Of a stretch of DNA of 42,317 bases, positions 4,957 through 42,317 are shown one piece after another. The stretch is from Fibrobacter intestinalis. GTDB taxonomy: Bacteria > Fibrobacterota > Fibrobacteria > Fibrobacterales > Fibrobacteraceae. The position numbers and the translations under genes are program-made. The notes beneath the pieces are model-generated. The model did not search any database. It saw only the letters and a program-made list of their open reading frames with translations, and had not been told where the DNA came from. The first letter of the stretch is position 1, and each line of letters starts with the position of its first letter. The DNA is taken from positions 1 to 42,317 of the forward strand of contig NZ_FUWU01000026.1 in assembly GCF_900167415.1 (NCBI RefSeq), read 5' to 3'.

Positions 4957-6141
4957 TTACCCCTTACTCTTCTCTTTCAGCAAATCATGCCTTTTGGCGT
5001 GGATAAGCCCGAGTGCCAAATAGAAAACGGAAAGCAAAAACAGCTTGAGCAAATTCGGAGCGACTTCTTGAAAATCGGCACCGATGTTTTGAATGCTAAG
5101 CCAAGCGGGAATGGCATAAGTCGAGGGAAAGAATGCTCCAAGCACTTGAAGCCATGCGGGCATATTTCCTTGAGGCCAGCTGAATCCCGAAACGAAAAGC
5201 ACTAAAATCGGAACGGCGGCGAACAGGGCGAGAGCCGATTCTCGGCGGGAAAAGAATTGTGAAATCCACATTCCCATATTGACGACGCTTCCCAAAAAAA
5301 GAATTCCGAAGAGTAACGTCAAAAAAATGTTTCCGCGATCGGGAAAATCGAAAATAGGGTAAATTACGGTTTTATAAAAGAACAGGGCGCAAAGATAGTG
5401 TAGAATAAAAGCGGAAGATCGTCCGAAGTAGCGCAAGAGCAAAGGAGCGTTTTCCGTGTCTTCGTGCCCTTGAAGCCATTTAAAGGGACGATTTTTTTGA
5501 GGGCCGCCCATGACGCAGATTCCGATGAGGCATGTCTGTTGCAAAATAATCATAAGGACTGCGCAAACCGCATAGATGCCGTAGCCTCCAGAACGGTTGA
5601 ACATCCGGAAAAACTGGGTTGGGATGGGGTTGCGAATCGCTTTTGCTTCGGCCAGAGTGTGCCCGTTTGCGACGATGCGCTTGACTTGCGTGGTTGCGCC
5701 GACGGTTTCTGCGGCTGTTGCAAAGGCGCTGGCGATGTTGCCGTATAAAAGGATGAATGCGCCGTGGCAGTAAACGCCCAGAGAGAGATTGTTTCCTTTG
5801 ATAAGGTCCGATTCCATGCCTTCGGGAATTTTCATATAGCAATAGATGGTTTCATCGGCCAGGGCGCGTTGAGCATCGATTTCTTTATCGTAAATGGCGA
5901 CAAGAGTGTCTTCTTGCATTGCCGAAGCCATTCGGATAATTTGCCGGGAAACGGCTGAATGGTCTTCATCGACAATGGCGGCGGGAGCTTTATTGACGAT
6001 TTCATGAACGTAAGGATACGGATAATAGAATGCGTACAAAAGAACGCCGACGACAATGACGAGAAAACATGCGGGATCCCGAAAGAACATTTTCCATTCG
6101 GTCAGGACGATGTGAAAGAACTGGTCTATTCGATGGAACAT
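4957..6141 (-). CDS. ABC-2 type exporter permease (second of pair)
   Basis: This 394-residue inner-membrane protein has the ABC-2 (YhhJ/YbhR-like) layout. There is one N-terminal membrane helix (FLVIVVGVLLYAFYYPY), a periplasmic domain of about 150 residues, then five to six membrane helices, including a conserved FVSGFSWPQGNMPAWLQ segment near the end. The ATG at 6141 follows GGGAGCG and overlaps the end of the preceding permease gene by 16 bases. It is the last gene of the tolC-hlyD-permease-permease operon. No ATP-binding protein is encoded in or next to the operon, so the energising subunit must come from elsewhere. The substrate is unknown; related systems export drugs, lipids or polymers. 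Confidence 0.85.
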   Translation of the reverse strand: MFHRIDQFFHIVLTEWKMFFRDPACFLVIVVGVLLYAFYYPYPYVHEIVNKAPAAIVDEDHSAVSRQIIRMASAMQEDTLVAIYDKEIDAQRALADETIYCYMKIPEGMESDLIKGNNLSLGVYCHGAFILLYGNIASAFATAAETVGATTQVKRIVANGHTLAEAKAIRNPIPTQFFRMFNRSGGYGIYAVCAVLMIILQQTCLIGICVMGGPQKNRPFKWLQGHEDTENAPLLLRYFGRSSAFILHYLCALFFYKTVIYPIFDFPDRGNIFLTLLFGILFLGSVVNMGMWISQFFSRRESALALFAAVPILVLFVSGFSWPQGNMPAWLQVLGAFFPSTYAIPAWLSIQNIGADFQEVAPNLLKLFLLSVFYLALGLIHAKRHDLLKEKSKG

Positions 6142-7271
6142 TTTTCGCGCTCCCGATTCAGATTTTTGCGGATTCGAAATCCTTGAGCCAAAACGGCGAC
6201 CAGAATCCAAAACAGAAATTCCATGGCGAGAATTTCAAAAGAATGTCTTGCCCGCACTGTTCCTATCTGCCCGAAAAAAAATGCCGACTGGAGCTGCATA
6301 AAATGGGTGATGGGTAGCACGAATGCCCAGCAGCGAATAGGAAAGGGCATCGCCATCAACGGAAAAGTTTGCCCGCAAAAGGCGAATGCAGGGCCTCCGC
6401 TTACCGCCGCGGAACTCAAGGCGACTCGCATTTCCCCGACGATGCCGGCGAAAGCAGCTCCTGCGGCAAGGCAAGTCCCCACCATTAAAAATGCGCCTCC
6501 GAACAAAAGGACCTGTTGAATGGCTCCGAGTTCTGGCATGCCGTTTCGGGCAAGCAAAAGCATTCCGCAAAATTCCGTTCCGAGAATGAAAAATGCCGGA
6601 AGGAATCTTCCCCCGAATGCACAAAGCAGAGAATTCTGTGCTGCGATTTCAAACCATTCCCGAGTTTGTTTTTCCCTTGTCGGGTACGAAAAAATGTAGG
6701 CCCCTAAAAGCATCGCGATGACGTGAAAGAGGGCGACCACCAATCCGATTCCCAAAAAGCGTTCGTAGTTTCCCGTCGGATTGCCGATGAGATGAATTTC
6801 TGTAGTGATCGGCGGGGCGACGACGTTCTTGACCAAGACCGCTCCGACGGTGGCAACGGCGATGCGCAGGTCGTTTGTAATCAATTTGCTGGTCAGCAGG
6901 GATTGGCCGTTGGTGTAAACGCTGACGGTTGGCGTTTCGTAACGGAGCGCGTACTTTTCCAAATCGACGGGAATATCGACAAAAGCCAGAATTTCTCCAC
7001 TTCGCATTGCCGATGCGCATTCCGAAATGCTTTGGCAGCGTTTGGATATTTTGACTGTCGGGGTTGCTTCGATGGCGCGCAAAAGGCGGTCCTGCAAGGG
7101 TCCGCCCCCTTCGGCAATGACTCCTACTGGCAGGTTGCTGGGCGATTCTTCGGAAAAAAGCGACAGGATGCCCAGGCATAAAAACAAGGGGAAAATAAAC
7201 AGCAAAATGTGCAGCAGGGGATTCCACTGCAAATAGGCGTCTTTTACTACGGCAAAAAACTTTTGCGGCAA
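6126..7271 (-). CDS. ABC-2 type exporter permease (first of pair)
   Basis: This second ABC-2 permease (381 residues from the chosen start) has an N-terminal helix (LLHILLFIFPLFLCLGILSLF), an extracytoplasmic domain, and about five C-terminal membrane helices. It pairs with the next gene, probably as a heterodimer. Two TTG starts are possible. The one at 7301 would overlap hlyD by 13 bases but has no ribosome-binding site. The one at 7271 follows CGGGAG by eight bases and is preferred. Confidence 0.82.
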   Translation of the reverse strand: MPQKFFAVVKDAYLQWNPLLHILLFIFPLFLCLGILSLFSEESPSNLPVGVIAEGGGPLQDRLLRAIEATPTVKISKRCQSISECASAMRSGEILAFVDIPVDLEKYALRYETPTVSVYTNGQSLLTSKLITNDLRIAVATVGAVLVKNVVAPPITTEIHLIGNPTGNYERFLGIGLVVALFHVIAMLLGAYIFSYPTREKQTREWFEIAAQNSLLCAFGGRFLPAFFILGTEFCGMLLLARNGMPELGAIQQVLLFGGAFLMVGTCLAAGAAFAGIVGEMRVALSSAAVSGGPAFAFCGQTFPLMAMPFPIRCWAFVLPITHFMQLQSAFFFGQIGTVRARHSFEILAMEFLFWILVAVLAQGFRIRKNLNREREKCSIE

Positions 7272-7288
7272 AAGAATATTCTCCCGAA

Positions 7289-8266
7289 TTATTTTTTCCA
7301 AAGAGCGGTCATGCCGGGGCGCAGTCCTTCGACGGGAGCTTTCGGGCGCAGGCGAATTTCAAATGTCTTCAGGTCAAAGCCTCCGCTTTCCCGGCTGCTT
7401 TTCCAGATGGCGTAATTTCCGGCGCTGGCAATGTAATAGACTTCCATCGGTATGGTCTTTTCTAAAGCGGGAATGAAAATGGAAAATTCTTTTCCTTTGG
7501 ATACGTTTTTCAACGCGTCTTCCCGGATGTTGAAAACCGCCCAGGCTTCTTTTAAATCGGTGATGGCGACGACGGGCATTCCGGCTCCGACGACTTCGCC
7601 TTCTTCTGAAATTTTAAGCGTGATTTCTCCGGAAATCGGGGCGAGGATTTTTGTTTCTTTCAAATAAGCATTGACTTCGGCTTTGGCTCCATTCGCTTGC
7701 AGAACGAGAGCGTTTGCTGCCGCTTTGTCTTCGGAACGAGCTCCGTTTAGAGCCATCGTGTATTGCGCCTTGGCCGCTTCCCATTGGGCGTCCGCCGCAT
7801 TTTTTTGGGTTTCCGCTTCGTCGCGCTTTTGAACGGGGAGCACGCTGTCGTCGTATAGTTGCTGCACGCGCTCGTACGTGCTTTTGGCCAGTTTCATCGC
7901 CTGCTCCGCTTTTTCCATCATGGCTTTGGCGGCATCGATTTGTTCGCTGCGGGAACCGTTTTTCGCTTTGGTCGCTTGCGCTTTGGCCGCTTTGTATGCG
8001 CCTTCCGCCTGTAATTTTTTGGCTTCCACTTCGGGGGAGTAGATTTCGGCGATGATATCGCCTGCGGTTACGCTGTCTCCTTCGTGAACGGAAAATTTGC
8101 TGATGCGCCCGGCGAGTTTTCCCGCGACCATGACGCGTCGGGCATCGATTTGCCCTTGCTGATATTCCTGCTGTGGGACAAAGGCAAAATGCCGAATGGC
8201 CCCGAATGCCGCAATGATTAAAGCGACAATGACTGTCAACATCAAAATGGCCGGAATCTTTTTCAT
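7289..8266 (-). CDS. HlyD-family periplasmic adaptor (membrane fusion protein)
   Basis: This periplasmic adaptor links an inner-membrane exporter to a TolC channel. It has 325 residues: an N-terminal membrane anchor (about residues 5-25), a first half biotin-lipoyl domain (AGKLAGRISKFSVHEGDSVTAGD), an Ala/Lys/Glu-rich coiled-coil hairpin (about 80-185), the second lipoyl half (ILAPISGEI), then a beta-barrel domain. The length and layout resemble YbhG/YhiI adaptors of ABC-2 exporters. The ATG overlaps the tolC stop (ATGA) and follows GGAG. Confidence 0.9.
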   Translation of the reverse strand: MKKIPAILMLTVIVALIIAAFGAIRHFAFVPQQEYQQGQIDARRVMVAGKLAGRISKFSVHEGDSVTAGDIIAEIYSPEVEAKKLQAEGAYKAAKAQATKAKNGSRSEQIDAAKAMMEKAEQAMKLAKSTYERVQQLYDDSVLPVQKRDEAETQKNAADAQWEAAKAQYTMALNGARSEDKAAANALVLQANGAKAEVNAYLKETKILAPISGEITLKISEEGEVVGAGMPVVAITDLKEAWAVFNIREDALKNVSKGKEFSIFIPALEKTIPMEVYYIASAGNYAIWKSSRESGGFDLKTFEIRLRPKAPVEGLRPGMTALWKK

Positions 8267-9714
8267 TTTCGATTCTCCAGATATTGGCTGATTTTTTCGA
8301 CTTCTCCGCAGGTTTCCAAAAGCCCGACAAGGGACATCACCGCTTCATAGTTCGCTTTGAGGGTTGCCAGACGCAAGCGCGAAAGGGAAAGTTGCGCATC
8401 AACGACAGCGAGGCTCGTTCCCATTCCTGCATCAAAGGCTTTCTGTTGGTCTTGCAAAGATTCCTTCGCCAGCTCTTCCGTTTTTTGAAGGCTTTCCAGC
8501 TGACCTTTGGCGTGTTCGTATTCGCGGTAGCGTTTTTCCACCAGCAGGGAAATGTTTTGTACTGTCTGGTGCTGCAAACTTTCGACTTCCCGCTCCTGCG
8601 ACTTGGCTTCGGCGATTTTCCCTGTGGTTTCTCCGCCGTGAAAAATGTTCCATTCTACGGCGACTCCCAAAGCCCATTCCGGTTCCAAGATGGTCAGGTC
8701 CTTGGTGTAGAGTTCTTTTTTGCCAAAAAGGGCGACGGTCGGAAAATAGTCGCTGCGAGCTGCCGTAACCGCTCGACCCGCCCGCTTTTTTTCTTGTTCA
8801 AGTTGTTTGATTCCCGGATAATTTTTTTGCGCCCGTTCCTTAAATTCTTTCAGGGACGATTTTAATTCTACAGGTTGAATGGATGTCGTCGCGGTCAATG
8901 CCGTATCGCTGGATCCCAGCGAATTGGCCAGAGCCAACCGGGAAAGCGAAAAATCCCGTTCGGCGTTTTCTTTTTCCGTAACCGCTTCGGCCAAGGCGAC
9001 TTCTGCCCGCAGGCGTTCTGCTCGGGAAATTTGTCCGGCGGCTTCTAGCTTTTGCGCGTGTTCCAAATGCGTTTGAATCGTTTGCAACGCTTCGTTACGG
9101 AGTTCCAGCATTTCTTCGGCCAGTCGCATGGTAAAATAGCGCGCGCAGACTTCGGATAAGACGGCGTTCTCTGTCATGGCGAAGGCGAATTTTTGGGCGT
9201 CGATATTTTCGGAAGAAGCTTTGTATGCTGACAGGATTTTCCCTCCGGTAAAAATCGGCCAGACGAGGGTTGCCGTTGCATTCCAAAACAGGTCGTCTTG
9301 AACTTGGATTTTGAATTTGTCTTCGGGAAGTTGTGCGGCGAATTGATTGCTTCCGGTTCCCGCCGCTTGTTGTGCAAGCATTTGGGCGGTCGCATCGCCG
9401 ACTGTGGGTGCGGTCATCCCATAAACGCTCGCATAGGTGGATGCGTAATTGGAACCGACAATTGCCGTTCGGACGGGGGAAAGGTCGATGGTTATCGGGT
9501 CGTTGATTTTGGTTACTTTGCCGGACAGGGTCAGGGAAGGCATCAAGAGGGAACGCGCTGAAGTTTTCTGGCTTTCCGCTTTTTCTAGATGAGTGCGATT
9601 GACAAGTATTTGCGGATTTTTTTGTTTGGCGACCGCGATGGCGTCGTCGATGGATAAGGGGCTGGCAAAAACGCAAATCCCCCAAAAAGCGATTGAGGCA
9701 AGTACTCGTTTCAT
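8263..9714 (-). CDS. TolC-family outer membrane efflux protein
   Basis: This is an outer-membrane channel of a tripartite exporter. From the chosen start it is 483 residues with a signal peptide (MKRVLASIAFWGICVFA/S), then SIDDAIAVAKQKNPQI, the usual start of the mature TolC fold, and two internally similar helical halves with Ala/Glu-rich coiled coils. The frame extends 12 codons upstream to a TTG at 9750, but the signal peptide begins at ATG 9714. It is the first gene of the minus-strand exporter operon and is divergent from the GH45 gene, with about 225 bases between them. Confidence 0.9.
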   Translation of the reverse strand: MKRVLASIAFWGICVFASPLSIDDAIAVAKQKNPQILVNRTHLEKAESQKTSARSLLMPSLTLSGKVTKINDPITIDLSPVRTAIVGSNYASTYASVYGMTAPTVGDATAQMLAQQAAGTGSNQFAAQLPEDKFKIQVQDDLFWNATATLVWPIFTGGKILSAYKASSENIDAQKFAFAMTENAVLSEVCARYFTMRLAEEMLELRNEALQTIQTHLEHAQKLEAAGQISRAERLRAEVALAEAVTEKENAERDFSLSRLALANSLGSSDTALTATTSIQPVELKSSLKEFKERAQKNYPGIKQLEQEKKRAGRAVTAARSDYFPTVALFGKKELYTKDLTILEPEWALGVAVEWNIFHGGETTGKIAEAKSQEREVESLQHQTVQNISLLVEKRYREYEHAKGQLESLQKTEELAKESLQDQQKAFDAGMGTSLAVVDAQLSLSRLRLATLKANYEAVMSLVGLLETCGEVEKISQYLENRK

Positions 9715-9939
9715 TACGATGAAATTAAAAAAAAATTCAATAGGAGACAAGCGGGTCTCGCTGCTTTTTGTATGGTTTCATTCTGCTTTTTTAACGCTTA
9801 CATTGCAGGAATGCGTGATTCTGGGAACGTTCGCGGAACACTTCTGCAAAGTGTCTATGGAAAATTTACATGGATTTTGGAATTTAGGATTTATTTTATA
9901 GGCTGTTCGAATTTGATTGTCCGACGGGACGAGGTATTT

Positions 9940-34821: not shown

Positions 34822-35076
34822 GTTGCCGACAACTTGAAGAGGAAACTTTTTGTTTTCAGATTTTCCGTTGTAGAACGGAGAGCCTATTCTGCGCAGGATG
34901 ACGTTCGCGTTTTTTTAGTTTGCGGATTTGTGAATCTAGTCGCTGCGTTTATTTTACAAAGCGAAAGTGCCGCACTATTTCGACTTTAGGCGTTTCATCG
35001 TCTTTTTCTAGAATGGGAATTGGATATGACCGTTCTTTTTTTATTTTTTAGTCCCCTTCATTATAAAGGAATCGCG

Positions 35077-36450
35077 ATGGCAGAAAAAAATGTTTTCGAT
35101 ACGGCTATGCCGCATGCGGCTATCGATAAATTTGTCGCTCCCGTTCAGCGCTTTTTAAAAGTGGAATCGACGGCGGGCATTGGCTTAATTGTTGTAACGT
35201 TTTTGGCTCTTCTGTGGGCGAACCTGTCTCCGGAATCCTACAGTGCTTTTTGGAACCTGCCCTTTAATTTTACTATAGGTCCGTGGAGCATCGACAAGGC
35301 TTTGCACGGTCATGTTCCGACCATCGGCTGGTTTGTGAACGACGCCCTGATGACGATTTTCTTTTTTTCCGTCGGGCTGGAAGTCAAAGGAGAAATCGTG
35401 CAGGGGGAACTCCATGACGTGCGCAAGGCTCTTTTGCCGATTCTGGCTGCCGTCGGCGGGATGATTTTTCCTGCGATTATCTATTTGTTGATTTGCCCTC
35501 CCGCAGCGCACCACGGCTGGGGAATTCCGATGGCGACGGATATTGCGTTTACGGTCGGTTGCATGGCTTTGCTCGGCTCTCGCATTCCGCATGGACTTCG
35601 GGTCATGATTCTGACTTTGGCGATTGCCGATGATATCGGATCGATTATCGTCGTGGCTGTCGGATACTCCAGTGGTGTGCAGTGGAGTGCCCTAGCGATC
35701 GCCGCCATATTCCTTTTCTTGACTTGGCTCTCCTTTAAGGTCGGCATCCGCAATTTCTTTGTGCATGGGGTTCTGGCTTTGATCTCCTGGTTCTGCTTTG
35801 TGCAAAGCGGTGTGCATCCGACGATTTGCGGTGTGATTATCGGGCTTTTGACTCCAGTGACGCCGATGGTCGCCAAGACCTACATGGACAAGCTTATTGT
35901 GACTGTGGGGGACGCGGTCAAGGCGAATCGCCCGATGACAAACGATCAGCGCAAAGAAGTTCTGGATATGCTGGAACGGACTTCTCGCGAGAGCGGTTCT
36001 TTGCAGGGACGCTTGAATACGCACTTGCAGCCCTGGGTGAATTTTGTGATTATGCCGCTTTTCGCTTTGGCAAATGCGGGCGTTGTGATTGAACCGGGCG
36101 CAATCAGTGCTGTCACTTTGTCCGTTGCCTTGGGACTTTTAATCGGCAAGCCGCTGGGCATATTCCTTGTGTCCTTTGCGGCGATTAAAGCGAAGATTTG
36201 CAAATTGCCTGCGGGCGTGAACTGGAAAGCTCTTCTGGGCGGAGGAATGCTTGCCGGTATCGGATTCACCATGTCTTTGTTTGTGGCGGGGCTGGCGTTC
36301 AGCGATGCGGACCATGCGTCTTTTCTTGCCGCGGCCAAGGTTGGCATCCTTTCGGGCAGTTTCGCGTCGGCAATCCTCGGGATTGTTTATATGCGCCTGG
36401 TGTCGAAGCCGTCGTCGGTTCCGGACGCTCCTTTGGGACCTACGGAATAG
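35077..36450 (+). CDS. nhaA: Na+/H+ antiporter NhaA
   Basis: This inner-membrane antiporter exports Na+ in exchange for protons for salt and pH homeostasis. It has 457 residues and about twelve hydrophobic segments. Recognisable are FLKVESTAGIGLIVVTFLALLWAN, the FFFSVGLEVKGE region, and the paired aspartates of the ion site: Asp in MATDIAF and the double Asp in AIADDIGSI. GGGMLAGIGFTMSLFVAGLAF lies near the C-terminus. The ATG follows AAAGGA; the frame is open for 19 codons upstream but without a better site. It is longer than the E. coli protein because of a cytoplasmic loop (about 290-330). Confidence 0.95.
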   Translation: MAEKNVFDTAMPHAAIDKFVAPVQRFLKVESTAGIGLIVVTFLALLWANLSPESYSAFWNLPFNFTIGPWSIDKALHGHVPTIGWFVNDALMTIFFFSVGLEVKGEIVQGELHDVRKALLPILAAVGGMIFPAIIYLLICPPAAHHGWGIPMATDIAFTVGCMALLGSRIPHGLRVMILTLAIADDIGSIIVVAVGYSSGVQWSALAIAAIFLFLTWLSFKVGIRNFFVHGVLALISWFCFVQSGVHPTICGVIIGLLTPVTPMVAKTYMDKLIVTVGDAVKANRPMTNDQRKEVLDMLERTSRESGSLQGRLNTHLQPWVNFVIMPLFALANAGVVIEPGAISAVTLSVALGLLIGKPLGIFLVSFAAIKAKICKLPAGVNWKALLGGGMLAGIGFTMSLFVAGLAFSDADHASFLAAAKVGILSGSFASAILGIVYMRLVSKPSSVPDAPLGPTE

Positions 36451-36471
36451 TCTTGCTTGTTTAGAAAATCG

Positions 36472-36493
36472 GGGCGGATTATCCGCCCTTTTT
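36472..36493 (+). terminator. Terminator after nhaA
   Basis: GGGCGGA, loop TTA, TCCGCCC, then TTTTT. Confidence 0.92.
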
Positions 36494-36663: not shown

Positions 36664-37347
36664 ATGCTAGATCTTCTCACGGTGCAATCCAGCGCCGCTT
36701 ATCCGACAGTCATCACAATGGTATATACCCTGCTTTTGGCGTTCGTATGCTCGACGGCGATAGGATTTACCTACGAACACACTTTTTTGGGACTTTCCTA
36801 TTCCCGGAATTTTGTCCAGGCGCTGGTGCTAAGCTCCGTTGTGGCCGCCACCGTGATGCAGGCGATTGGCGATAACGTCGGTCGCGGTTTGGGAATGCTT
36901 GGCGCTCTTTCGATTGTGCGCTTTCGGACGAGCTTTAAGGACCCGCGGGACATTATGTTCTTGTTCGCCGCTCTGGGTGCGGGCATCGGCTGCGGCGTTT
37001 TCGCTTGGGGAATCGCTGCGGGTGGAACGCTGACTTTTTGCGTTATCGCTTTTGTACTTTCCCGTTCGGGTCTCGGCACCAAGAATTTTTTTGACGGGAT
37101 GCTCCGCTTTGCCATGACAAACGATTCCGCTTCCCGGGAAGCACTCGAAAAAGTTTTGCGGGCAAATATCAAGACCTTCGTGCTGATTACAATGCGAGAG
37201 GTCGATGGCGGCGAACGCATCGATGTCGCCTACCAGGTGCGCTTGCGCCGCAAGCGTCCGGCAAACGAAGTGCTCAAAGAGCTGACGAAAATCCCCGGGG
37301 TTTCCAACATTCACTTTATGATGCAGGACGCAACGACGGAAGTCTAG
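36664..37347 (+). CDS. DUF4956-family membrane protein (first gene of VTC operon)
   Basis: A 227-residue inner-membrane protein with four predicted helices (about 15-37, 50-68, 97-113, 114-133). A conserved basic loop GMLGALSIVRFRTSFKDPRD lies between helices two and three. A C-terminal soluble domain (about 165-225) has a beta-alpha-beta, ACT-like look reminiscent of MgtC C-termini. DUF4956 genes are known to sit beside VTC-domain and CotH genes; here the VTC gene is three genes downstream. I infer a channel or scaffold for the VTC enzyme. The ATG follows GGAG. HlyD follows at once, and the whole set reads as one operon. Confidence 0.85.
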   Translation: MLDLLTVQSSAAYPTVITMVYTLLLAFVCSTAIGFTYEHTFLGLSYSRNFVQALVLSSVVAATVMQAIGDNVGRGLGMLGALSIVRFRTSFKDPRDIMFLFAALGAGIGCGVFAWGIAAGGTLTFCVIAFVLSRSGLGTKNFFDGMLRFAMTNDSASREALEKVLRANIKTFVLITMREVDGGERIDVAYQVRLRRKRPANEVLKELTKIPGVSNIHFMMQDATTEV

Positions 37348-37356
37348 GAGATGGGA

Positions 37357-38454
37357 ATGTTTTTTAAGAAATTGGACGAATTGGCGGACTTGAATTCTTC
37401 TCGTTTTCATGCCATTGAATCGCACAAGATGCTTTTTGCCTGGATTGTCGCTGTGGTAGCTATCGTCGTTCTCGGGTATTGTTTTCACGGACAGAATATC
37501 GTTTTTTCGGGAATCGCCGAAGCGGACGAAACCATCATCAGTATGCCGGAAGCGGTGGAAGTCGTTAAAATTCACGTGATTCCGGGGCAAGAAGTCAAAG
37601 CGGGCGACACTCTGGTCGAATTGGCTCGCCCCGCCCTTGCCGTGCGCATGAATGAACTCCAGCGGGAACTGGACGCCATCGAAGGGCGCGGAAACATCAA
37701 TTCGGCAAGCATCGATCAGAAAGTCGCGGAAGTCCAATCCGATTTGAATATGCGCCGCAACACCATCAATTTGGAAATTGAAAAACTGAATACGCAGTAT
37801 CAGCAGAATCAGGCACTCTCTTCCAAGCTTAAGAGCATTTCCGGTTCGGTCAAAGCGGACAGCAACAGCGGCATCCTGTTGAGCATCCGGAATCTCAAAA
37901 AGGAATTGCGCGTTGCCGAAGCGAATGCAGCTTCGCAGATCCGTCTTTTGAGGGGGAGCAAAGGTTTGGAGAAAACGAGTAACAAGGCGGAAATCGAAGC
38001 GCTCCATCGCGAAATGGAAATGATTAAACGGCAGATTGACGAGCAGACGATTATCGCCAAGGAAAATTGGATTGTCGCCAGTGTCGATGTGCGTGACGGG
38101 GAAAAGGTTTCGAGTTTTAATCCGATTATCACTCTCACGCATAAAGAGGTGACTCTTGTACGGGGCTACATCAACGAGAAGATTGTGGCGCGTCTGGAAG
38201 TCGGCGATGCAGTCGAAGTCATTTCCAATAGCGGCGAGCACATGATGGGCGCCATTTTAGGAATGTCCAGCCGGATAGTGCCTTTTCCGATTCGTTTGTT
38301 GAAAATGGTAGATATGCCGCTTTACGGGCGAGAAGTGACGATTCGGGTTCCGCAGGGAAATCGATTGCTTTTAGGCGAAAGGGTTTCCATTGCAGAAAAA
38401 ACAAAAATTCCCCAGATTTTCAAGGAATCCGTGATGCAGGGAGATGAAAAATGA
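37357..38454 (+). CDS. HlyD-family periplasmic adaptor of the VTC operon
   Basis: This 365-residue adaptor has an N-terminal membrane helix (about 26-46), a lipoyl half (MPEAVEVVKIHVIPGQEVKAGDTL), a long coiled-coil hairpin (about 90-235, rich in Glu/Lys/Gln), the returning lipoyl half (IIAKENWIVASVDVRDGEKV) and a C-terminal beta-barrel region ending GNRLLLGERVSIAEK. Two ATGs are in frame: 37351 abuts AGGAG, while 37357 has six bases of spacing and is chosen. No ABC, MFS or RND pump is encoded beside it, so its inner-membrane partner is probably the DUF4956/VTC pair. Its stop overlaps the TolC start. Confidence 0.88.
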   Translation: MFFKKLDELADLNSSRFHAIESHKMLFAWIVAVVAIVVLGYCFHGQNIVFSGIAEADETIISMPEAVEVVKIHVIPGQEVKAGDTLVELARPALAVRMNELQRELDAIEGRGNINSASIDQKVAEVQSDLNMRRNTINLEIEKLNTQYQQNQALSSKLKSISGSVKADSNSGILLSIRNLKKELRVAEANAASQIRLLRGSKGLEKTSNKAEIEALHREMEMIKRQIDEQTIIAKENWIVASVDVRDGEKVSSFNPIITLTHKEVTLVRGYINEKIVARLEVGDAVEVISNSGEHMMGAILGMSSRIVPFPIRLLKMVDMPLYGREVTIRVPQGNRLLLGERVSIAEKTKIPQIFKESVMQGDEK

Positions 38455-39758
38455 GATTTTCTGTTTGGGGTCTCGTTCTTTCGGTGTCGGCTTTTGCGAC
38501 CCCTCTGACTTGGGAAAAGCTGATTGCGTCTGCGGAAAACGATCCGGTTTTGCAAGCGTCGGGGAAAAAACAGTCCGCCATTGCTCACCGTTCAGGGACC
38601 AAACTTTGGGACGATTTGGAGTTGGAGTACACATTGGACGGTTTCGGCTTTATGGAACACGATTTTGAATTGAAAATCAAGCCGAAAGCCTTTGGTGAAG
38701 GTTCTGCCGACGATGCTTATTGGAAAAGTCAAGCGGAATACCAGCGGGCGCACCAGAATCTGGATCGGGCGCTCGTCCTTTATGAACGCTACGAACACGC
38801 GCTTCGATTTGTCAAGTGGCAACAGATTTTGCATTTGCATTTGCAGCTTTCGCAAATCGCGGCGGATCGTATAGAAGTTTTGCATGCGCAGAGCGGCTCG
38901 GAAGAATTCCGTTTGCAGGATCTGGTTTCGGCTTTGGAAGAGCAGGTGTCGATTTCGGCAAAGCTTGTCGCCGACTCCAATGCGATTCGGGATTCTAAAA
39001 TGAAACTGCTTTCATGGGTCGAAGGCTACGATGAAGTGGATATTGATTCCACATTTTTACCGTCGATTGAGGAATTGAAAAAAATTCTGACCGAGATGTC
39101 TTTGAATGCAGAAAGATATTCCGAGGTGGCGACGGCTCGCGCAAAATGGGCCGTGGATGAAAAACGCGCCGAACAGGAAACGGCGAGCGATCGCAATTAT
39201 ATTTCAAAAATCGGCGTGGGGTACAAGTATGTGTACGGGCGTTACAAATACAAATGGATAACGAAGGAATGCAGCGGTTCGAGTTGTGTTGAAGAGTGGC
39301 AGTTGCAGCGCACCGATGACGACCGCAGAACGCAGGATAAATTTTACGCATCCATCGCGGTGCGGCTTCCGTTTTTCAGCAATGACAATTCCGGCAATTT
39401 AAAACGGCAAATCGATGTCTTAGAAAGCGAACGGGATTACCAGAAGACCAAGCGAGACGTCTCGCAAAAAGTGGAACGCCGCCGCGAAGAAATTCTAGGG
39501 TTCATCACCCAGCGGGAAGTGCAGCAGAAATTTGTGGAACAGGTCGATCAGGGTGCTTTATTCGAAGACTTTGCGAATCGGGCTGGAAACGATCCCCTTC
39601 TTTTGCTGCGCGCCAAGCAGAGCTCTGTGGAAAGCCAGCTCAAAATCGTGGAATTGGACGACAATATTTTTACCGTGTATCTGGATCTTCTTTTTCAGAC
39701 CGGAGCGCTCGGCAGAACGGATGTGAACAATCATTTGAAAGCGGGACCTGAAAAATGA
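38451..39758 (+). CDS. TolC-family outer membrane protein of the VTC operon
   Basis: A 435-residue protein with a signal peptide (MRFSVWGLVLSVSAFA/T), then TWEKLIASAENDPVLQASGKK like the mature start of TolC proteins, long Glu/Gln-rich helices and a beta-strand insertion (ISKIGVGYKYVYGRYKYKW). It differs from the other TolC in this window (8.3-9.7 kb) and is divergent for the family. The second half has coiled coils ending in LLFQTGALG, typical of the last TolC helix. Overlapping ATGA junctions at both ends couple it to HlyD and VTC. Confidence 0.82.
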   Translation: MRFSVWGLVLSVSAFATPLTWEKLIASAENDPVLQASGKKQSAIAHRSGTKLWDDLELEYTLDGFGFMEHDFELKIKPKAFGEGSADDAYWKSQAEYQRAHQNLDRALVLYERYEHALRFVKWQQILHLHLQLSQIAADRIEVLHAQSGSEEFRLQDLVSALEEQVSISAKLVADSNAIRDSKMKLLSWVEGYDEVDIDSTFLPSIEELKKILTEMSLNAERYSEVATARAKWAVDEKRAEQETASDRNYISKIGVGYKYVYGRYKYKWITKECSGSSCVEEWQLQRTDDDRRTQDKFYASIAVRLPFFSNDNSGNLKRQIDVLESERDYQKTKRDVSQKVERRREEILGFITQREVQQKFVEQVDQGALFEDFANRAGNDPLLLLRAKQSSVESQLKIVELDDNIFTVYLDLLFQTGALGRTDVNNHLKAGPEK

Positions 39759-40597
39759 GCGAAGCGCGCGGTTTCAGTCTGCTTGAAAGGTTTGAACTCA
39801 AGTATCACATTCCTGTGTCCCTCGCCGACGAAATCGGGGATTTTCTGAAACCTTATTGCGAAGAGGATTTCTATTCCAAAAAGACGCCGGGCGGGTTTTA
39901 CTGGATTACGAATTTGTATCTGGATTCCCCGCGGTGGACTTTTCTTAGTTGGAAAAAAGCGGGCAAGTTGGACCGGTTCAATATGCGGGTGCGCTGTTAC
40001 GGCGAACATCCGGACAACGAGGGCTCTTTCCATTTTGAAGTCAAGCGGAAAGTGGCGAATGTCGGCTATAAAAGTCGAGGAACGATTAAAGGCGTGAATC
40101 CTTCTTTTGTGTGGTCCCATCCCGAAGAGGAGTGGCCCTGCAAAACGGAAACGGACAAAATGTATGTGCGTCAGTTTATCGGCAAAACGCATATTTATAA
40201 TGCGCAACCGAGGCTTTTGACGCAATACAAAAGGCGCGCCTGGTTTGGCTTGAACGAGGAATATTCCCGGGTGACAATCGACATGGGGATGCGCTTTCGC
40301 GAAGAAAATGGATTTGATTACAGCGTCGATTCGGCGGAGATGTGGTCCACCAGCCTGCCGCGATTTTTTCAAAGGGATTGCAACGCCGTTTTGGAATTGA
40401 AGTGCCCCGCTTTACAGGTGCCGTTCTGGATGCTCGATTTGATTCACCGGTTCAATTTAAAACATGGAGCGTTTTCTAAATTCGGGAATGCTGCCGCCGA
40501 ATGGAAGCGGGTTTATGAAAATCCCCGAGATTTTCGTGACGCGCGTTTCCCTTATCTGGCTGGCGATTTTGAAGATTCCAAGGAGGTTTTCGCATGA
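39755..40597 (+). CDS. VTC-domain polyphosphate polymerase-like protein
   Basis: A 280-residue cytosolic triphosphate-tunnel enzyme with no membrane helix. The family's tunnel residues are visible: ERFELKY (Lys16), MRVRCY (Arg78, Arg80), FEVKRK (Glu95, Lys97, Lys99), QYKRRAW (Arg160/161), SRVTIDM (Arg172, Asp176), LELK (metal-site Glu214, Lys216) and FSKFG (Lys242), matching yeast Vtc4 positions by eye. Yeast Vtc4 makes polyphosphate from ATP and passes it through a membrane. All catalytic-type positions appear kept, so an active polymerase or polyphosphate-binding enzyme is likely. It is coupled by ATGA overlaps to TolC and the lamin-tail lipoprotein. Confidence 0.9.
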   Translation: MSEARGFSLLERFELKYHIPVSLADEIGDFLKPYCEEDFYSKKTPGGFYWITNLYLDSPRWTFLSWKKAGKLDRFNMRVRCYGEHPDNEGSFHFEVKRKVANVGYKSRGTIKGVNPSFVWSHPEEEWPCKTETDKMYVRQFIGKTHIYNAQPRLLTQYKRRAWFGLNEEYSRVTIDMGMRFREENGFDYSVDSAEMWSTSLPRFFQRDCNAVLELKCPALQVPFWMLDLIHRFNLKHGAFSKFGNAAAEWKRVYENPRDFRDARFPYLAGDFEDSKEVFA

Positions 40598-42159
40598 AAA
40601 AAGAATGGCGGTTACCGTTTTCGACGGTGACTTTGACAGCGGCTTTTGCCTTCGCTTTTATCGGTTGCAGTGACAGCAGCAGCGGAAAGACGCGGGAAGT
40701 GGGAATTGCCGCGATGACTTGCACCGAACTGATGTACAATCCAGCGCCCGGCTATCCGGAATTTGTCGAACTCAAGCTGACGGGGAAATCGCTTTCCAGT
40801 ATGTCGGCGGTCAATTTGCGTTTGGACGGTGCCGTGCAGTATTCTTTTCCCGATGAACCTTTGGATGTCGATGAAATTATCGTCGTGACGGAAGATGCGT
40901 CGCTTTTCCGGGAGAAATATCCCTCTTTCACGGGACGGCTTTTCCAATGGGACGCCGGGTATAAACTTTCCAATTCAGGAGATGTTTTGGAAATCAAATT
41001 GGACGGGAAGGGGGATTTTGACGCCCGCTTTGACAACAATCCGCCTTGGCCGAGCCTTGCCGACGGAAACGGCAGCTCCCTCGTTTTCATTGGAGACAAT
41101 CCCGCTTATGCGGAATCCTGGGCGGCGAGCAAAACCCCGAACGGAAATCCGGGCTCTGCGGAAGACCCGTATTATGCTGCATCGTCGGTGCGCATCAACG
41201 AAATCATGCCGTATCATGGCGGCGAATCGGAATCGTGGATAGAATTTTACAATGCGGGTTCTGCGGAAGCGGATATCGGCGGTTGGAAACTCGTCCGTGC
41301 CGATGTCAAAGACAGCGTGCGTTTCATCCCGGCGGGCACGAAAATTCCGGCAGGCGGCTATGCCGTTCTGGATGCTTTGGAAAATGAATCGGGCGAATTG
41401 GACAGCGTTTCCTTTGTGGCTCGGGGCGAAGCGGTTTACTTGCGGGAAGTGCAAGCGGGAAAGGCGACTGGCGTGGAATCCGGCTTGGAATATGCTGCGG
41501 TTCTTCCGGGGCATTCTGCGGGCGTGATTTCGCTTTCCGACGAGACGAGCCAGCAGGGAATGCTGCAAAAACCGACAAAGGGTGCAGCCAATTCGGAAAT
41601 TTCCCTGGGGCCGCTTTTCATCAGCGAAGTCTTTTACAATCCTCTTGATGGCGACGTGGAATTTTTGGAAATCGTTAACAACTCGGATTCTTCCGTCACT
41701 CTCCGCGCCATGCTGAATACGCTATTCGTCGGTTGGAAAATTTCGGGAGTCGGTTTTGAATTCGGGGAGAGCAATGTGCTTTTGCCGCAGGAAGTCGCCG
41801 TTCTTATTCCTACCAATTATACGGCAGCCGACGGATTTTCTTCGGTTCCCGTAACGGTGGAAGAATTTCGCGCCAAATGGAAGTTGCCCGAATCGCTGCA
41901 GATTTTCCAGTATGCGGGAAAACTTTCCAATCGCGGGGAAAAAATCTCCGTGGAAAATCCGCTGGAAATCGCCAAGAATTTGAAAGATTCTTCGGTCGTC
42001 TATTATCAGGTTTCCGATGCGATACTTTACTCGGATCGGGGGCTTTGGCCCGAAGACGCGGACGGTTACGGTTACAGCCTCCATCGTCGGGATTACGCGG
42101 TTTCGGGTTACGAGCCGTCGAATTGGGATGCGAAGGAGCCTACTCCGGGCAAAATCTGA
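40594..42159 (+). CDS. Lipoprotein with three lamin-tail domains
   Basis: A 521-residue envelope lipoprotein. The signal peptide ends in FIGC (Cys25), followed by a Ser-rich linker. Three lamin-tail (LTD) Ig-like domains follow: about 38-190 (CTELMYNPAPGYPEFVEL), 198-335 (VRINEIMPYHGGESESWIEFYN) and 340-515 (LFISEVFYNPLDGDVEFLEI). Each starts with the LTD pattern I-x-E-h-x-Y/P...E-hEh. SxS after the Cys gives no inner-membrane retention Asp at +2, so outer-membrane location is plausible. Bacterial LTD proteins are often near membrane hydrolases or CotH kinases; no CotH is present here. The start overlaps the VTC stop. It is the last gene of the operon. Confidence 0.87.
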   Translation: MKKEWRLPFSTVTLTAAFAFAFIGCSDSSSGKTREVGIAAMTCTELMYNPAPGYPEFVELKLTGKSLSSMSAVNLRLDGAVQYSFPDEPLDVDEIIVVTEDASLFREKYPSFTGRLFQWDAGYKLSNSGDVLEIKLDGKGDFDARFDNNPPWPSLADGNGSSLVFIGDNPAYAESWAASKTPNGNPGSAEDPYYAASSVRINEIMPYHGGESESWIEFYNAGSAEADIGGWKLVRADVKDSVRFIPAGTKIPAGGYAVLDALENESGELDSVSFVARGEAVYLREVQAGKATGVESGLEYAAVLPGHSAGVISLSDETSQQGMLQKPTKGAANSEISLGPLFISEVFYNPLDGDVEFLEIVNNSDSSVTLRAMLNTLFVGWKISGVGFEFGESNVLLPQEVAVLIPTNYTAADGFSSVPVTVEEFRAKWKLPESLQIFQYAGKLSNRGEKISVENPLEIAKNLKDSSVVYYQVSDAILYSDRGLWPEDADGYGYSLHRRDYAVSGYEPSNWDAKEPTPGKI

Positions 42160-42274: not shown

Positions 42275-42317
42275 TGCAAGGTTTTCTAAAATATGACTGA
42301 AAACCTTGCATTTTTTT
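42275..42317 (+). terminator. Terminator after the VTC operon
   Basis: A perfect 12-bp stem TGCAAGGTTTTC / GAAAACCTTGCA with a 12-nt loop and seven T at the window edge. It lies 115 bases past the lipoprotein stop. Between them is a short copy of the CTAACTAACCACTAG-type intergenic repeat. Confidence 0.85.

Follow-up and report, generated by a model that had tools for sequence, protein, structure and literature searches.

A conserved DUF4956-HlyD-TolC-VTC-lamin-tail operon in Fibrobacterota is a candidate for synthase-coupled polyphosphate export

The DNA analysed here (the window) is the whole of contig NZ_FUWU01000026.1 of Fibrobacter intestinalis, 42,317 bases from a 3.29 Mb genome (G000), and the last 5.7 kb of it carry the operon under study, five plus-strand genes between positions 36664 and 42159 (Table 1). 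They encode, in order, a DUF4956 membrane protein, an HlyD-type periplasmic adaptor, a TolC-type outer-membrane channel, a VTC-domain protein and a lipoprotein with lamin-tail domains (LTD), with Pfam E-values of 9e-14 for DUF4956 (PF16316), 4.5e-5 for HlyD_3 (PF13437), 1.1e-5 for OEP (PF02321), 1.5e-31 for VTC (PF09359) and 5.4e-26 for LTD (PF00932). An initial annotation of this DNA had described five plus-strand genes with three ATGA overlaps and a three-base gap between DUF4956 and HlyD; the open reading frames are intact, and the layout and its coordinates are as it gave them. Terminator-like hairpins lie on both flanks. One, at the 3' end of an NhaA-type antiporter gene, sets the antiporter apart from the operon, and the other closes the operon after LTD, at the contig end; the transcript is thus most likely limited to the five genes.

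The initial annotation had treated these genes as one functional unit and had proposed a survey of their co-occurrence, which we ran within the phylum, gathering DUF4956 and VTC gene neighbourhoods and annotating them with profiles made from the window proteins. The order DUF4956-HlyD-TolC-VTC, on one strand, is kept in all 28 loci of the HlyD/TolC type that were examined, which are spread over five families (f1, f3, f4, f10 and f11), and the LTD gene comes next after VTC in 25 of them. In a maximum-likelihood tree all VTC proteins of the HlyD/TolC loci fall into a single group (support 99/98; one label change; 99% of bootstrap trees). The DUF4956 tree is concordant with the VTC tree except for one row (L082), which we rejected as a true exception to one origin because its contig is cut inside HlyD. 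The operon is a stable, co-inherited unit, far beyond chance, and the constant order and the single VTC group bear out its treatment as one functional unit. DUF4956 was found in 46 of 61 relatives, and in 45 of the 46 VTC is matched as well; in both cases of mismatch that were seen (G020 and G014) a contig end cuts the locus. Among 14 control genomes, the same three match both families. The two proteins are thus supported as near-obligate partners. VTC-DUF4956 loci in the phylum come in two types, only one of which has HlyD/TolC: in the other, simpler type VTC directly adjoins DUF4956 and HlyD/TolC are missing, whereas two genes separate VTC and DUF4956 in HlyD/TolC loci. Both types can coexist in one genome, as they do in three (G046, L086/L087; G063, L113/L118; G065, L106/L117). 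The evolutionary frame is therefore wider than the initial annotation proposed.

Table 1. Features of the operon and of its surroundings in the window
Feature	Position	Strand	Remarks
OEP-HlyD-ABC2-ABC2 export cassette	4957-9750	-	
NhaA-type Na+/H+ antiporter gene	35020-36450		directly upstream of operon
Terminator-like hairpin	36471-36489	+	8 bp stem then Ts; GGGGCGGATTATCCGCCCT TTTT
DUF4956 gene	36664-37347	+	ATG at 36664, GGAG ahead of start
HlyD gene	37351-38454	+	3-base gap after DUF4956
TolC gene	38451-39758	+	start within ATGA overlap with HlyD
VTC gene	39755-40597	+	start within ATGA overlap with TolC
LTD lipoprotein gene	40594-42159	+	start within ATGA overlap with VTC
Strong terminator-like hairpin	42275-42317	+	12 bp stem then T7; -16.9 kcal/mol, z = -6.0

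The VTC protein (280 aa) consists of the VTC domain alone, with no membrane segment; the Pfam match covers profile positions 2-233 of 235, nearly the whole domain, and the closest named records, from Fibrobacter sp., are 84% identical. A profile search matched yeast Vtc4 (4.7e-8), whereas a single-sequence search of the PDB returned nothing real. R78, R80, K97, K106, R160, R172, E214, S241 and K242 of the window protein are invariant in 24 VTC orthologues and align, in order, with R264, R266, K281, K294, R361, R373, E426, S457 and K458 of Vtc4. We take K281, K294, R361, R373, S457 and K458 to be recognised Vtc4 sites, consistent with the alignment at an offset of three. R264, R266 and E426 are the positions changed to inactivate the yeast enzyme (PMC9911596). 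All the basic tunnel residues that the initial annotation had recognised are therefore kept, as is the Glu of the metal site, and the polyphosphate-polymerase active site is apparently intact.

Its partner DUF4956 (227 aa) has about four to five hydrophobic segments by hydropathy and a C-terminal alpha/beta (ACT-like) tail, and scores 52 bits against a PF16316 cut-off of 30.6. The MgtC/SapB model PRK09977 (NCBIfam) matches residues 68-217 (6.7e-6), far below the equivalog cut-off of that model, and DUF4956 thus appears to be related to the MgtC/SapB family. Two basic residues, R86 and R88, are invariant, also in loci of the simple type.

The remaining three proteins would reach across the periplasm to the cell surface. 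HlyD is an HlyD/EmrA-type adaptor with one N-terminal membrane helix, and its nearest models are MdtN and EmrA (7.5e-11 and 1.4e-10); the tip of its hairpin carries an invariant motif of its own in the alignment, N-x6-L-x-S. Some relatives in families f10 and f3 have an extra domain of about 300 residues in or after HlyD (L106:5690-7663, L087:7558-9768, L114:6711-7664), which resembles a beta-propeller and has a weak phytase-like match (2e-4). TolC has a signal-peptide-like N-terminus, and its AlphaFold model (pLDDT 82.7) matches solved TolC, OprM and their relatives in Foldseek (probability 1.00, best E 7.6e-14), so that, as modelled, the product has a real TolC fold, with its long helical hairpins and the strands of a trimeric barrel. 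The LTD protein is a predicted lipoprotein (lipobox FIGC). Three lamin-tail domains had been proposed in it; Pfam marks two stretches of the window protein as significant, against three in the L107 orthologue, and a third Ig-like domain in the window protein is probable by eye.

An adaptor and an outer-membrane channel are thus present, yet no inner-membrane transporter of the ABC, MFS or RND type is linked to them, as the initial annotation had noted. No gene of these families lies within the operon, and none of the three is among the 25 most frequent families in the 87 neighbour proteins of HlyD/TolC loci. A motif scan of the neighbours returned one ABC-type ATPase, 8 kb away, and one unrelated large protein, and the window itself yielded no ABC ATPase with both Walker A and signature. 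We also looked for relatives that pair HlyD/TolC with a separate pump, which the initial annotation had named as evidence that would refute its proposal; such pairing exists only superficially. An OEP-HlyD-ABC2-ABC2 export cassette comes directly after LTD in genus g2 and also follows it in some g5 and g10 loci, and was not seen beside the remaining HlyD/TolC loci. We rejected it as the missing pump and regard it as a neighbour, because it has its own adaptor and outer-membrane factor and in the window lies 27 kb away on the opposite strand; nor is it conserved beside the operon. The joint most frequent family near HlyD/TolC loci is NhaA (5 of the 87 neighbour proteins).

The initial annotation had noted that DUF4956 sits beside VTC elsewhere, usually together with CotH. 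Indeed, CotH kinase genes lie within about 6 kb of nine HlyD/TolC loci and of most simple loci, and the encoded proteins often carry LTD domains or type IX secretion system (T9SS) tails, although no CotH gene adjoins the operon in the window or in most Fibrobacteraceae. These neighbours tie the operon to a module of Gram-positive bacteria: CotH, polyphosphate polymerase and DUF4956 genes adjoin pel in streptococci, clostridia and bifidobacteria (PMC7112168), and SIR_1592 of Streptococcus intermedius has the same architecture as DUF4956, an MgtC-type membrane part with an ACT domain (PMC12345266). A 2025 study did not find this three-gene synteny outside pel loci (PMC12345266); in Fibrobacterota, in contrast, it occurs without pel. 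PelG was found neither in the window's genome nor in any other VTC-bearing genome sampled, so that an association with Pel is absent there. The operon thus represents a version of the CotH/polyphosphate-polymerase/DUF4956 module for two membranes. It shares with the Gram-positive pel accessory genes the VTC and DUF4956 partners and, in relatives, the CotH neighbours; it differs in the absence of pel, in having HlyD, TolC and LTD in the unit, and in that CotH is unlinked in the window's family. As to CotH genes themselves, four lie elsewhere in the window's genome (contigs C46, C58, C35 and C66), one beside a polysaccharide flippase gene and another beside an acyltransferase gene. In four simple loci (L098, L099, L100 and L125) two to four CotH genes stand in a row, and some of their products end in a T9SS tail; L098 additionally encodes FadL-like and weak Porin_O_P proteins and a Cthe_2159 carbohydrate-binding protein.

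The initial interpretation of the operon as a machine that makes and secretes polyphosphate is plausible and partly supported. Put generally, as a transenvelope apparatus in which export is coupled to the synthase, it is the best of the readings considered here, and we regard it as a serious possibility that falls somewhat short of an even chance. Its strongest form, pump-free export of polyphosphate across two membranes through an MgtC-like conduit and HlyD-TolC, driven by VTC synthesis and the membrane potential, is a more tentative proposal that may well be wrong. As we infer it, cytoplasmic VTC would polymerise phosphate at the inner membrane, most likely making polyphosphate from ATP, and DUF4956, MgtC-like and with its invariant basic residues, would be its membrane partner, probably as conduit or regulator. 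HlyD would span the periplasm and TolC would open the outer membrane. Chain growth and the membrane potential, not a pump ATPase, would push the polyanion outward; because the potential is inside-negative, exit of an anion through DUF4956 would be favoured. The LTD lipoprotein might then hold the polymer at the surface, and in relatives the polymer might serve or decorate CotH/LTD surface proteins. The VTC complex of yeast is a precedent: there the synthesis of polyphosphate is coupled to its transfer through a basic channel in the membrane, aided by the membrane potential (PMC9911596).

Several observations weigh against polyphosphate export by this route. Simple VTC-DUF4956 loci without HlyD/TolC occur in the same diderm phylum, and PPK1 is also encoded in the genome of the window. 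It is possible that a motor is encoded elsewhere in the genome. AlphaFold gave no usable fold for DUF4956 (pLDDT 53), and as far as tested this protein has no homology to the Vtc1/3/4 channel. The window HlyD lacks RLS/RLT, the motif by which the hairpin tip of an adaptor binds TolC (PMC3391258), and at most 3 of 27 alignment rows share a column. Moreover, aggregation and Pel are retained when the VTC homologue of S. intermedius, SIR_1593, is deleted (PMC12345266).

Other explanations have to be weighed against polyphosphate export. VTC-DUF4956 could belong to a surface-modification module and control or provide the phosphoryl donor, or the polymer of phosphate, that secreted CotH kinases and LTD proteins use; HlyD-TolC, with an unlinked motor, would then export their protein or glycan target, and the polymer would bypass TolC. 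The CotH genes near both locus types and the T9SS tails on their products speak for such a module, as does the altered Pel amount and aggregation of S. intermedius after deletion of its DUF4956 and CotH homologues (PMC12345266). However, no CotH or other cargo gene adjoins the operon in the window or in most Fibrobacteraceae, HlyD/TolC sit between DUF4956 and VTC and not beside CotH, and pel genes are missing from all the VTC-bearing genomes sampled; we consider this explanation unlikely, if still worth keeping in view. Ordinary tripartite efflux would require a motor encoded apart from the operon, such as an ABC-2 exporter like that of the cassette, with VTC and DUF4956 having a regulatory role in phosphate or membrane stress, MgtC-like. 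A review reports an energised inner-membrane transporter in every tripartite system described (PMC8277102), and the adaptor nearest to EmrA/MdtN models, the cassette directly after LTD in genus g2 and the likeness of DUF4956 to MgtC point the same way. We nevertheless regard efflux as improbable, since the cassette comes with a separate HlyD and outer-membrane factor and is not a conserved neighbour of the operon, none of the motor families is recurrent in the 87 neighbour proteins, and the adaptor/channel pair follows one VTC group on the tree.

It is more improbable again that VTC is a phosphotransferase which modifies an exported glycan or lipid with phosphate or short polyphosphate, with HlyD-TolC exporting the modified polymer. 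Substrates vary among triphosphate tunnel metalloenzymes (TTM; PMC4641920), Gram-positive homologues are grouped with Pel synthesis genes (PMC7112168), and two CotH genes of the window's genome stand beside the acyltransferase and flippase genes mentioned above. Against this, no glycosyltransferase or flippase gene lies in the operon or is conserved beside it, and the active site agrees with that of the polymerase Vtc4.

The catalytic TTM domain is homologous to that of the eukaryotic VTC complex (Vtc1/Vtc3/Vtc4) and has identical residues in its tunnel and catalytic site; the operon further resembles that complex in having a small membrane partner and, possibly, in the coupling of synthesis to membrane passage. 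It differs in having no SPX domain and no DUF202-type Vtc1 helices, in its MgtC-like DUF4956 partner and in being joined to a two-membrane adaptor and channel, and its activity is predicted from sequence. Like HlyBD-TolC, EmrAB-TolC and MacAB-TolC it has an HlyD-type adaptor and a TolC-fold channel, translationally coupled; unlike type I secretion and tripartite efflux systems it has no linked ABC/MFS/RND motor and no canonical RLS/RLT, and VTC and DUF4956 occupy the place of the motor. In synthase-dependent exopolymer secretion (cellulose Bcs, Pel, alginate), an inner-membrane synthase feeds its product into a conduit through the periplasm and the outer membrane, and there is no dedicated ATPase. 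The idea of a conduit fed by its synthase is the same here, but the enzyme has a TTM fold and would make a phosphate polymer, where those systems have a GT2-type glycan synthase, and the conduit is HlyD-TolC instead of a TPR-porin.

Polyphosphate has been reported at the cell surface of some bacteria, and we know of no defined route for its export. A search of the open-access literature (subscription journals lay outside it) returned nothing that links HlyD-TolC to polyphosphate export. The operon unites a polymerase and a membrane partner with an adaptor and an outer-membrane channel, which makes it a testable candidate for such a route; if the proposal is true, it would be a case of an HlyD-TolC conduit without a classical motor. 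It also places the unexplained CotH/VTC/DUF4956 genes in a second genomic setting, one without pel, and may point to a phosphate supply for secreted CotH kinases, which are active where ATP should be scarce. In all nine sampled genomes of genus g2 (Fibrobacter; G006, G016, G021, G025, G027, G029, G031, G033 and G035), PPK1 and PPK2 matches are absent while VTC is present and the operon is retained, so that it may hold the only polyphosphate synthase of F. succinogenes-type bacteria, major cellulose degraders of the rumen. The gene set suggests that Fibrobacter-type cells may push a phosphate polymer to their surface.

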